This document shows positions 1 through 5,441 of a stretch of 64,000 nucleotides of DNA, piece by piece (the first letter of the stretch is position 1; the number at the start of each line of letters is the position of its first letter). The stretch spans positions 1 through 64,000 of the forward strand of contig WRLG01000005.1 of the NCBI GenBank assembly GCA_009777725.1, given 5' to 3'. Source of the stretch: Oscillospiraceae bacterium (GTDB lineage Bacteria; Bacillota; Clostridia; Oscillospirales; Ruminococcaceae). The position numbers were made by a program, and so were the translations under genes. The notes under the pieces were generated by a model. That model did not search any database and had not been told where the DNA came from. It saw only the letters and a program-made list of their open reading frames with translations.

Positions 1-63
1 AAGCACCGCACAAACATGCTATAATAAAAATACAAAAAATTAACAAGAAAGGTCTTGATTTTA
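1..63 (+). promoter_or_regulatory. Promoter (-10) and leader of the first AAGC locus
   Basis: A TATAAT box sits at 20-25. Any -35 box would fall at or beyond the left edge of the window. Positions 16-60 are almost identical to 4124-4167, where the same sequence follows a complete TTGACA/TATAAT promoter, so I read this as the same promoter module cut by the edge. An AGAAAGG ribosome site at 46-52 lies upstream of the ATG at 64. Confidence 0.65.
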
Positions 64-147
<84 letters not shown>

Positions 148-189
148 CTCCGTTCTTTTGGCGTGGTTTAAATTTTATATAAATAAATG

Positions 190-231
190 GGCAACTACTT
201 TCTGCTTTAAGCGGAGGGTAGTTGCCTTTTT
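190..231 (+). terminator. Strong rho-independent terminator or attenuator
   Basis: GGCAACTAC (190-198) pairs perfectly with GTAGTTGCC (218-226). An inner stem TCTGCT/AGCGGA can stack inside it, and TTTTT follows at 227-231. It lies between the leader ORF with its AAGC tract and the surface-protein gene at 364, so it would stop transcripts from the left-edge promoter unless read through. Confidence 0.85.
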
Positions 232-328: not shown

Positions 329-363
329 AATAAATACAATAAAAAAAACAGGAGGTAACTACC

Positions 364-1779
364 ATGTTATCAAGAAAAACAACCCGCAACCCCCGCATTA
401 TCCCTATCCTAACCGCCCTAGCAATTTTCATCTCAATCTTCGCCATGCTGAATGTTTCAGCAACTGACGAATGTGAGTATTGCGGACAAGACCCTTGCAT
501 TACACCTGTCGGCTACCACTGCAACGACTACCAAAAGTTAGTCGCTTTCGCCCTGCAAGGCGATAACCTCAATAAGTTAGGGTGGGATTTGGCAAACCCC
601 GAAAGTTGGGGTTTTCTAAATCCCCTAACCGGTACGAGCGATGTAACTTGGAACAGTGCCGAACAAAAAAGGGTTACTCATATTAATATTTCTAATAAAG
701 CATTAACAGGCACGCTTGAAGTTTCGGACTTTACAGCATTGAGTACGCTAAACGCCAATATAAATCAGCTCACAAGCATTAACGCTTCAAACAGCAATTT
801 AATACGTTTAGAAGCAGGCGCAAACCAATTAACAGCCATTGTTCTTTCCGGCAATGCCAATTTAGAAGAACTATACGTAAGCGCCAATCAACTGACAACC
901 CTTGACGTTTCAAGCAATACTGCGTTAACTCATTTGCTTGTACACGGCAATCGCCTCACAACCCTTGATGTTTCAAATAATGCAGCTTTACTCAGCTTAG
1001 GTGTATCCGATAACCGCCTCACAGCCCTTGACGTTAATGCAGCGTTAAGTCAACTGTACGTGCAAAACAACCAACTCAGAATCCTTGATGTTTCAAGCAA
1101 CACTCAATTAGGGATGCTGAACGTAAGCAACAACCGACTCACTGACATATCCTCCCTTGAAGATTTGACAAATCTTACCGCAGTTATTGTAAGCTATAAC
1201 CTGCTTAACTTGCAAAGCGCGAAGGTGCAAGCTTCAATCGAAAAAATACAGGCGACTGTAGACGGCAATGACGGCATATTTGAATACACCCCGCAAAAAT
1301 GCCTCGCTTGCAAAAGTTACCCTTGCATTTGCGACGGCAATCATGACGATGTTCAAAGCGGCGGCAACTCAGCCAGAGACGCAATCATAAACGGCTTCGG
1401 CATAGGCGGCGAAGCAGGCAGCGTAAACAACAGCGGCAAAACCGAAATCAGCGGTCATTTTGAAAATGACACCTACATAAAACACTCCGAAATCCCGCTG
1501 GTTTACACAGCTGACAAAAATTTCGCAGATTTCAGAGAAGTCCGCATAAACGGTCGCCGCTTAACCAAAGGAACGCATTACACCGTCAAAAGCGGCTCAA
1601 CAATCATCACCCTCCTGCCCGAATATTTAGACACGCTTGAAGCGGGAGAGCATGAATTGAGCGTTCATTTCAGCGGGCTTGCGGTGGTTAGAGATTCTTT
1701 TACCGTTGAAGATGCCGAATATGATGATGTTTCGACTTTGGCGGGGATTTTGGGGGAATTTGATTCAATTGATAATTGA
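364..1779 (+). CDS. Secreted leucine-rich-repeat protein with Cys-rich linkers and X2-like C-terminal domain
   Basis: Start chosen for its strong AGGAGGTAAC ribosome site. Residues 1-33 are a signal peptide (basic n-region, hydrophobic core, end NVSA). A CxxCGxxPC motif follows at residues 37-45. Residues about 105-285 carry around eight short leucine-rich repeats of the NxLTxLDVSxNxAL type; one unit (TALDVNAAL) has lost two residues. A second motif, CLACKSYPCIC, starts at residue 313. A Gly/Asn-rich linker leads to a final domain (about 365-460) resembling X2-like immunoglobulin-fold modules of clostridial surface proteins (LTKGTHYTVKSGSTIITL). No LPXTG or membrane anchor is seen, so the protein is probably released or bound non-covalently. 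The last 135 residues are nearly identical to those of the protein ending at 5441. Its last codons lie in heptad-repeat sequence. Binding partner unknown. Confidence 0.85.
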   Translation: MLSRKTTRNPRIIPILTALAIFISIFAMLNVSATDECEYCGQDPCITPVGYHCNDYQKLVAFALQGDNLNKLGWDLANPESWGFLNPLTGTSDVTWNSAEQKRVTHINISNKALTGTLEVSDFTALSTLNANINQLTSINASNSNLIRLEAGANQLTAIVLSGNANLEELYVSANQLTTLDVSSNTALTHLLVHGNRLTTLDVSNNAALLSLGVSDNRLTALDVNAALSQLYVQNNQLRILDVSSNTQLGMLNVSNNRLTDISSLEDLTNLTAVIVSYNLLNLQSAKVQASIEKIQATVDGNDGIFEYTPQKCLACKSYPCICDGNHDDVQSGGNSARDAIINGFGIGGEAGSVNNSGKTEISGHFENDTYIKHSEIPLVYTADKNFADFREVRINGRRLTKGTHYTVKSGSTIITLLPEYLDTLEAGEHELSVHFSGLAVVRDSFTVEDAEYDDVSTLAGILGEFDSIDN

Positions 1780-3244: not shown

Positions 3245-4096
3245 ATGGTAACTGAAACATTCCTCATATCAGTAAAAAACGACATCGGATTTAGACTTTT
3301 CTTCGCTGACGAACGGAACATTGAGTTTTTACAAGGGCTGTTAAAGTCAATTCTGAAACTGGACGATGGCGAATACGAGGTCATCGAAATCCTCGACCCG
3401 CACTTGCTCCGCGAATTTCACGGGGACAAACTAGGCATTGTCGATGTAAAAGTAAAAACCAAAACAGGGAAAATTATCCACATCGAAATCCAACTCAAAG
3501 TCCGCCCGGGCATGGAGGAGCGCATTATTTATTATGATGCTAAACTAATCACAGAGCAAATCGGAAGCAGTGATAAATACAAAGACTTAAAACGCGTAAT
3601 CAGCATCATAATCACCGATGAAACCCTTATAAAAGCAAGCCCGCTTTATCATCACCGCTTCACATTCTTCGACCCGAACGCAAACATCGAACTATCCGAC
3701 CTCATCGAAATTCATACTCTCGAATTAAATAAACTGCCGGATAATTTTGACGGCACGGAATTATGCGACTGGGCGAAGTTTATCGCCGCTAAAAGCGAGG
3801 AGGAATTGGAAATGGTAGCAAACAGGAATACGCAAATCAGTAAGGCTGTAGTTAAGCTCCGCGAATTGTCAGCGGATGAAAAAGCACGGGATATGTATGA
3901 ACGCCAAGAAAAAGCAAGGCGAGACCATGAGTGGGCTATGGATTATGCTCGGGAAGTGGGTATTGAGGAGGGTAGGCATAGGGGACGGCAGGAGGGTCGA
4001 CAGGAAGGTCGGCAGGAGGAGAGACAAGAGCTTATCAAAAGAATGAAATTATCCGGCATGTCCGAAGCTGAAATTGAGAAGATTCTTAAATTGTAA
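3245..4096 (+). CDS. Rpn-family recombination-promoting nuclease / PD-(D/E)XK putative transposase
   Basis: 283 residues. The N-terminal half matches the PDDEXK_2/Rpn family: NDIGFRLFFADE start motif, then catalytic Asp and ExQ-like residues in GIVDVKVKT and IHIEIQLK (about residues 60-85). The tail is charged, with GRQEGRQEGRQEERQE (coded by imperfect 12-bp repeats near 3985-4022), and ends in the short helix MSEAEIEKILKL typical of these proteins. In E. coli, Rpn proteins are DNA endonucleases that raise RecA-independent recombination; many homologues are annotated as transposases without evidence of transposition. An AAGGAG site precedes ATG 3245. A second, divergent family member is at 25388. 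No flanking inverted repeats seen. Confidence 0.85.
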   Translation: MVTETFLISVKNDIGFRLFFADERNIEFLQGLLKSILKLDDGEYEVIEILDPHLLREFHGDKLGIVDVKVKTKTGKIIHIEIQLKVRPGMEERIIYYDAKLITEQIGSSDKYKDLKRVISIIITDETLIKASPLYHHRFTFFDPNANIELSDLIEIHTLELNKLPDNFDGTELCDWAKFIAAKSEEELEMVANRNTQISKAVVKLRELSADEKARDMYERQEKARRDHEWAMDYAREVGIEEGRHRGRQEGRQEGRQEERQELIKRMKLSGMSEAEIEKILKL

Positions 4097-4104
4097 ATTG
4101 TTCA

Positions 4105-4133
4105 TTGACACCCCCGCTCAAATATGCTATAAT
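4105..4133 (+). promoter_or_regulatory. Sigma-A promoter of the phase-variable surface-protein locus
   Basis: TTGACA (4105-4110), 17-bp spacer, TATAAT (4128-4133), a consensus match. AAGAAAGG at 4153-4160 is the ribosome site for ATG 4172. From 4124 to the AAGC tract the sequence matches 16-90. Confidence 0.9.
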
Positions 4134-4171
4134 AAAAATACAAAAAATTAACAAGAAAGGTCTTGATAAAA

Positions 4172-4288
4172 ATGTCCAAATGTGCTACAATTTTAGCAAG
4201 CAAGCAAGCAAGCAAGCAAGATTATCTCTGCCCTAACCGCCTTGGCAATCTTCATCTCAATATTCACCATGCTGAATGTTTCAGCTGA
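4172..4288 (+). other. Leader start and out-of-frame reading of the surface-protein gene (phase OFF)
   Basis: ATG 4172, behind a ribosome site and a consensus promoter, opens MSKCATILASKQASKQ. It then passes through the AAGC tract and enters the wrong frame, ending at TGA 4286-4288. Removing one AAGC unit, or adding two, would join it to the frame at 4221 and give a leader ASKQASK followed by IISALTALAIFISIF, a well-formed signal peptide ending NVSA. As sequenced, the locus is therefore out of phase. The frames were worked out by hand codon by codon. Confidence 0.8.
4195..4220 (+). repeat. AAGC tetranucleotide tract (6.5 units) at a signal-peptide junction
   Basis: Perfect AGCA tandem repeat placed between the leader start codon (4172) and the hydrophobic core of the signal peptide (from 4221). 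The unit is not a multiple of three, so its copy number sets whether the leader is in frame with the surface protein. Confidence 0.95.
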
Positions 4289-5441
4289 AATATTTGACGG
4301 CGATGGTTGGTCTTTCGATACTGAAACAGGCGAACTCACAGTTTCCACAAATGAGGGTACAACAGCTTGGCGAGGTGCAGTTACGTTTAACGATGTAACA
4401 ACCGTTATAATCGAAGATGGCGTTACGGTAATAGGTCTTCAGGCGTTTAGCGGGACAAGCATAACCACCATAACAATACCCGAAAGCATTACCGACATAT
4501 ATGCTTACGTATTTAATAATTGCACAAACTTAACTTCAATAATCGTTGAATCCGCTAACAACAATTTTTCAGATATTGACGGCGTATTGTTCAATAGAAA
4601 CGCAACCGCGCTACTCCAATACCCAGCCGGGAACGCAAGAGCAAGCTACACAATCCCAAGCAGTGTTACAAGCATAGGGCGTGATTCGTTTGCATATGCA
4701 AAACTAACCTCTGTTATAATACCGGAAAGTGTTATGAGCATCGGGCATTTGGCGTTTCGAGCAATTACTGACCTGCTTTCGATAACTTTCAATTCACAAA
4801 TTCCACCTACTTTAGGTATATATGTATTTGCAGATAGTAGTAATTTAACAACAATATATGTCCCATACGGTGCAGAAGAGGCATATGCGGAGGTTGAGCA
4901 ACTGAATCGTTTCACCATAAAGGAGATGTGCGAAATTTGCGGCAAAAATCCTTGCGTTTGCCCTAAACCCAACCCCCCCGACCTTAGCGATAATGGCGAT
5001 AACGAAAGTAACAACCGCGGCGGAAGCTCCGTAAGAGATGCAATCATCAGCGGCGGCGGAATCGGCGGCGCGGCAGGCAATATAAACAGTAGCGGCAAAA
5101 CCGAAATTAGCGGTCATTTTGAAAATGACACCTACATAAAACATTCCCAAATCCCGCCAGTTTACATAGCTGACAAAAATTTTGCAGACTTCAGAGAAGT
5201 CCGCATAAATGGTCGCCGACTGACAAAGGGTACACATTACACCGTCAAAAGCGGCTCGACAATTATTACGCTCCTGCCCGAATATCTGGACGCACTTGAT
5301 GAGGGAGAACATGAATTGAGCGTTCATTTCAGCGGGCTTGTGGTGGTTAAGGCTTCGTTTACCGTTGAAGATGCTGAGTATGATGATGTTTCGACTTTGG
5401 CGGGGATTTTGGGGGATTTTGATTCAATTGACAATTGTTAA
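4242..5441 (+). CDS. BspA-type leucine-rich-repeat surface protein, phase-variable start
   Basis: The given start is TTG 4242, a fallback in the frame left open by the repeat tract. The natural start is probably ATG 4172, currently out of frame, and ATG 4269 is the next in-frame ATG. The signal-peptide core is followed by BspA/LRR_5 repeats (about residues 50-220: ITTITIPESITDIYAYVF, SYTIPSSVTSIG, SVIIPESVMSIG). Then come a CEICGKNPCVC linker and the same X2-like C-terminal domain as the protein ending at 1779 (LTKGTHYTVKSGSTIITL, ending TLAGILGDFDSIDN). BspA-type proteins are often adhesins or are shown at the surface. In the present phase it is probably made poorly or not secreted. Stop codon lies in heptad-repeat sequence, 3 bp from the addB stop on the other strand. 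Confidence 0.8.
   Translation: MAIFISIFTMLNVSAEIFDGDGWSFDTETGELTVSTNEGTTAWRGAVTFNDVTTVIIEDGVTVIGLQAFSGTSITTITIPESITDIYAYVFNNCTNLTSIIVESANNNFSDIDGVLFNRNATALLQYPAGNARASYTIPSSVTSIGRDSFAYAKLTSVIIPESVMSIGHLAFRAITDLLSITFNSQIPPTLGIYVFADSSNLTTIYVPYGAEEAYAEVEQLNRFTIKEMCEICGKNPCVCPKPNPPDLSDNGDNESNNRGGSSVRDAIISGGGIGGAAGNINSSGKTEISGHFENDTYIKHSQIPPVYIADKNFADFREVRINGRRLTKGTHYTVKSGSTIITLLPEYLDALDEGEHELSVHFSGLVVVKASFTVEDAEYDDVSTLAGILGDFDSIDNC

Follow-up and report, generated by a model that had tools for sequence, protein, structure and literature searches.

The AAGC tetranucleotide array that precedes a secreted-protein gene at 4105–4300 of the window (the whole 64,000-nt stretch of Oscillospiraceae DNA analysed here) is likely to act as the switch of a phase-variable leader peptide, and loci such as this one, in which the array is fused to a signal peptide, are likely to have been derived from that arrangement through loss of a terminator. 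The array belongs to a dispersed module whose probable role, judged from its sequence, is random ON/OFF switching of surface genes through the gain or loss of repeat units. We lean, with less assurance, towards a wider reading, in which one dispersed family of AAGC attenuators controls about fifteen secreted proteins in this genome, recurs at genes for surface proteins, for regulators and for an acyltransferase across an order of Firmicutes-like bacteria, and through repeated loss of its terminator has become a signal-peptide switch that is OFF in one phase and ON in the other two.

Table 1. Features of the two modules in the window and of the genes that follow them (n, number of full AAGC units).
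Feature	Position	Strand	Remarks
Second module copy	1–141	+	-10 at 20–25, SD 46–52, ATG 64, TAG 86–88, array 87–141 with 13 full AAGC
T1 hairpin 3' of array	138–155	+	Leader stop TAA 145–147 in loop; leader OFF at n = 13
T2 intrinsic terminator before gene	189–231	+	Predicted, RNAfold
Gene after the window's first module	350–1779	+	Own RBS 350–355, ATG 364; secreted LRR_4 + CBM_X2 protein
Promoter P1	4105–4133	+	TTGACA 4105–4110, 17 bp, TATAAT 4128–4133; read from sequence
Shine-Dalgarno (SD) AGAAAGG	4154–4160	+	11 nt before ATG 4172; read from sequence
P2 promoter-like pair	4163–4191	+	TTGATA-17-TACAAT; predicted +1 is the first array base
Leader ORF from ATG1	4172–4288	+	Out of signal-peptide frame at n = 5; stop TGA 4286–4288
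Second ATG	4180–4182	+	In signal-peptide frame only at n = 6 (n = 0 mod 3); weakly placed, 19 nt from SD
TAG abutting array	4194–4196	+	Seals the frame that now holds the signal peptide
AAGC array	4195–4220	+	AGC + 5 AAGC + AAG; codes (ASKQ)n in any frame
Signal-peptide hydrophobic core and NVSA cleavage region	4221–4286	+	Joined straight to array
Secreted protein	4221–5441	+	BspA-type LRR_5 + C-terminal CBM_X2 (Pfam); frame intact from array

The first-pass annotation had described a promoter, a ribosome site, ATG 4172 and a repeat at this locus, and all of these were found where it had placed them, by inspection of the sequence and with TRF, which reports AGCA x6.5 at 4195–4220 with a 100% match. 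The motif AAGCAAGCAAGC occurs in 14 registers in the window, in two arrays, against 0.04 expected from window shuffles. Its reading that the leader from ATG 4172 is in the wrong frame as sequenced is also borne out, the translation being MSKCATILASKQASKQDYL... up to TGA 4286–4288, and comparison of the frames at n = 4, 5 and 6 agrees that one unit fewer yields the signal peptide MSKCATILASKQASKIISALTALAIFISIFTMLNVSA. With n = 4, ATG 4172 is fused, giving MSKCATILASKQASK-IISALTALAIFISIFTMLNVSA; what had been overlooked is that one unit more also opens the frame, n = 6 fusing ATG 4180 to the same signal peptide. Thus the sequenced state, n = 5, which is OFF from both ATG 4172 and ATG 4180, is the sole one of the three phases that is closed from both. 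The repeat lies inside the start of an ORF, and unit loss or gain shifts the frame, as in SSR-based translational contingency loci. Also overlooked had been the TAG at 4194–4196, the P2 pair that ends at the array, the second copy of the leader at 1–141 and the 23 copies in the genome.

The hydrophobic core at 4221–4286 is the same as that of the paralogue at 364, whose start, MLSRKTTRNPR, is complete. At 4105–4300 the terminator between leader and gene is absent and the array runs directly into the signal peptide; as T1, T2 and the gene's own start are all missing, both the start codon and the n-region of this signal peptide now come from the leader. TTG 4242 and ATG 4269, which had been mentioned as other starts, were rejected as the true start of the protein, since they are not conserved in other fused copies (C28, C31 and C10). 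A sense reading of TAG in the sealed frame was likewise discarded, because TAG serves as a normal stop codon here, ending 9 of 33 long ORFs in the window. Directly upstream of the module lies a PD-(D/E)XK gene (3245–4096; PF12784, Rpn-type), with a 12-bp tandem repeat (3989–4019) in the region coding for its C-terminus; similar genes flank many other modules, so that Rpn-type gene, module and secreted-protein gene look like a repeated unit.

The 2.77-Mb draft genome (G000) holds 23 copies of one module (P1, SD, ATG1 and TAGC(AAGC)n), the one at window 1–141 included. Promoter, SD, ATG1 and TAGC are common to them with few degenerate exceptions, P1 being kept in most copies. The strength of the SD and the genes present would agree with the first-pass annotation's mention of Clostridia. 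Nearly all arrays start with TAGC; they comprise 1 to 20 units, some being cut by contig ends, and unit number also differs between paralogous copies. The module takes two forms. In the common one a hairpin and a strong terminator come after the array, and beyond them lies a gene that has an RBS of its own; in eight copies that gene encodes a secreted protein. In the fused form, seen at the window locus and six others, the array joins a signal peptide directly, and the hairpin, the terminator and the gene start are missing. Six of the seven fused copies sit on the same BspA/CBM_X2 signal peptide and one on an unrelated lipoprotein; an extra fused array at the very start of contig C36 was left out of the phase counts. 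The downstream proteins have a common CBM_X2 C-terminus combined with LRR_5, LRR_4 or Flg_new regions. The joints differ among fused copies (TTATC, TAACCCCCGCATTATC and, in the lipoprotein, TGTATAAG), suggesting at least three separate fusions.

The remaining copies have 1–2 units, except one that is cut by a contig end. Ahead of secreted-protein genes the arrays are long (3–20 units), as against 1–2 units elsewhere (P = 1e-4, uncorrected for relatedness). Opposite most of the 1–2-unit copies lie convergent PIN/VapC or Rpn genes; in one case the module drives a VapC-type pair. Short-array modules at C16:473–2218 (L047), C12:80814 (L106), C2:983 (L105) and C7:90038 (L052) have PIN/VapC-type or other small genes as neighbours, mostly convergent; the copy at C2:983 is a P1/P2 hybrid that has lost SD and ATG1.

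In the unfused copies, a leader ORF with RBS and ATG contains an array with a unit length not divisible by three, and the phase sets whether the leader stops before, or at or after, the predicted terminator. For ten representative terminator modules, which are not fully independent of one another, we listed the leader stop in each phase. In every one of them RNAfold predicts a hairpin followed by a T-rich run (the predicted terminator) between leader and gene, and in all ten one phase stops 2–6 nt after the array. A stop at most 8 nt from the array in one phase, found in ten of ten modules, has a shuffle mean of 3.5, and 0 of 1000 shuffles reach ten. When a phase was called OFF if the leader stop lies at least 28 nt before the terminator, a rule borrowed from Streptococcus gallolyticus (PMC3894217), exactly one OFF and two ON phases were obtained in all ten modules (shuffle mean 4.6, with 0.05% of shuffles reaching ten). 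A reading frame open through T2, taken alone, was no commoner than in shuffles. Covariation in RNAalifold was weak on a mixed alignment of modules, and the H1 and T2 structures therefore rest on single-sequence folds and inspection. A known RNA family was considered as well, and Rfam gave no relevant match at the modules. The spacers between terminator and gene (189–330 in the window, and in other unfused copies) hold dispersed palindromes, GGGACGGGCAAGCCCGTCCC and similar.

In the mechanism that we propose, an RNA would be transcribed from P1 and its leader translated from ATG1 across (AAGC)n, the number of units setting the frame in which the ribosome leaves the array. In one phase the ribosome would stop 2–6 nt past the array, well before T2, and T2 would end transcription (OFF); in the other two phases it would run to or through T2, and the gene would be transcribed (ON). 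At the fused window locus, n = 1 mod 3 would fuse ATG 4172 and n = 0 mod 3 would fuse ATG 4180, the sequenced n = 5 being OFF. This locus looks like a derivative of a pil1-type attenuator that has lost its terminator, rather than a member of that class. By analogy, we infer that leader translation, antitermination and population switching take place in these bacteria. The first-pass annotation had read the array as a signal-peptide switch, which is supported in part. That unit number sets the phase, and that the repeat codes for the n-region, appears well supported at this locus and at six other fused loci; but fusion to a signal peptide appears to be a derived special case of a module that acts mainly as a leader-peptide attenuator, its terminator lying downstream.

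One could argue instead that the array, placed where the coding sequence of the secreted protein begins, is a plain translational contingency locus, the other copies being separate genes with no attenuator role. Such a locus would fit the fused copies, where n − 1 and n + 1 both open the frame and six of seven frames are intact, as well as an acyltransferase in another genome (G462) that is fused and in frame. We nevertheless consider this unlikely, because most long-array gene-linked modules outside the fused group have the RBS and start of the gene beyond the terminator, and because the conserved stop just past the array would be senseless without a leader peptide.

Within the order, several further families carry homologous modules of diverged sequence; there, as within the family, the modules were located through their TAGC(AAGC)n arrays; all counts come from draft assemblies, with one genome per species. 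Modules were found within the same family in G050, G156, G277, G438 and G202, and in other families in G090, G643 and G573/G680/G705, while the G462 module is a probable analogue. The exact leader was absent from the related genomes searched, but these diverged modules are of like build: an upstream promoter (a -35/-10 pair 5' of the module), SD, a TTGA-type motif, ATG1 and TAGC(AAGC)n are kept across lineages, as is the T2 terminator before the gene where sequence continues. TAGC precedes every module array found, those of other families included, and, with a single exception among the lineages seen, the distance from ATG1 to the array is 2 mod 3 nt. The downstream genes encode secreted proteins in G090, G277 and G643 and a TetR regulator in G438; the downstream proteins of G705, G680 and G573, with weak AAA-ATPase and TPR matches, look like MalT-type regulators. 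In G462 an acyltransferase-3 gene is fused in frame to the array and is in the ON phase. The exact 19-mer of the leader/array junction gave one chance-like match elsewhere among genome contigs, in Hymenobacter, and none in viral contigs.

The first-pass annotation had suggested looking in related genomes for other unit numbers; unit number does differ at an orthologous unfused locus, which has 21 units in G705 and 5 in G680, with flanks 98% identical (97.6% and 98.6%). With flanks so nearly identical, this is direct evidence that unit number changes. In G090 the tmRNA gene precedes the module (L143) by about 0.4 kb, both being on one strand, and in G277 (L147) a TGA falls within the predicted signal peptide of the secreted-protein gene after the module.

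Conservation across lineages also bears on a promoter-proximal role, in which a P2 promoter (TTGACA-17-TACAAT) would start at the first array base and the units would tune the start or stability of the transcript, translation playing no part. The 17-bp spacing holds in nearly all G000 copies, with +1 on the array, and the P1/P2 hybrid at C2:983 does without SD and ATG1. This reading is very unlikely all the same: G438, G156 and G050 have lost the TACAAT -10 half but keep SD, ATG1 and P1; a P2 transcript of a fused copy would be without a start codon; and the stop codons after the array would be left unexplained. P2 could still be a real second promoter.

The leader-peptide switch that we favour has one difficulty in the phases of the fused copies. 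In all seven, the protein frame can be followed upstream across the array as far as the sealing TAG (*QASK...), and all seven are out of frame from ATG1, sharing one OFF phase despite 5, 15, 16, 3, 3, 18 and 9 units, while n mod 3 is scattered in the unfused copies. By chance such sharing would be expected once in 243 to 729 (about 0.004 with six copies counted as independent). This exceeds what chance switching would give and counts against our explanation, which needs either selection for OFF in the sampled population or another use for this phase. That the fused copies are silent donors or decaying genes, with arrays that are neutral microsatellites, would agree with their common lack of frame from ATG1, with the frameshift further down in C31 and with the long similar segments common within the family, but is hardly plausible: phase apart, six of the seven frames stay open as far as their end or a contig end, and neutral arrays would not all agree in phase, nor would long arrays be confined to positions in front of secreted-protein genes.

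In the literature searched, phase-variable attenuation was found only at two pilus loci of S. gallolyticus. The pil1 attenuator (GCAGA repeats) was proven by mutating the terminator, the ATG and RBS, and the stops (Danne et al. 2014, PMC3894217), and the same mechanism was supported for pil3 (PMC3894217). The modules described here resemble these loci, as far as sequence alone can tell, in the succession of promoter, RBS, leader-peptide ATG, short tandem array, premature terminator and surface-protein gene, in having one short (OFF) and two long (ON) phases, and in a varying unit number, which in S. gallolyticus differs between isolates. They differ in their unit (AAGC, 4 nt, rather than GCAGA, 5 nt), in a hairpin apparently formed between the leader and the 3' flank, in their 23 dispersed copies with relatives in other families and on regulators, as against two pilus loci, and in that some copies have lost the terminator to become signal-peptide fusions. 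If our reading is true, a multi-copy family in distant bacteria would mean that surface proteins and regulators are randomised quite generally in this manner, ON/OFF states would be predictable from assemblies by unit counts, and intermediates between an attenuator and a coding-region switch would be available.

In the opa genes of Neisseria, the repeat codes for the hydrophobic core, whereas here it codes for the n-region, and unit length and taxon are different; opa is not known to have attenuator relatives. The two systems are alike in that the repeat (CTCTT in opa) lies within leader (signal) peptide coding sequence in a multi-copy family of surface proteins (PMC3960869). With the contingency loci of Haemophilus influenzae (PMC2651432), the fused loci share a tetranucleotide array near the ORF start and alternative initiation codons, as in the work on lic2A start codons cited in PMC6479036 (Dixon 2007). 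H. influenzae oafA, an O-acetyltransferase gene, has the very unit (GCAA) found in the fused acyltransferase of G462. Unlike the modules, the loci of these unrelated bacteria act by translation, without a leader ORF and terminator. Most viral TAGC(AAGC)3 matches were rejected as chance. Three viral contigs (L179, L193 and L195) carry TAGC(AAGC)6–22 near an ORF start; these phage arrays are apparently unrelated to the module and resemble Haemophilus-type tetranucleotide loci.
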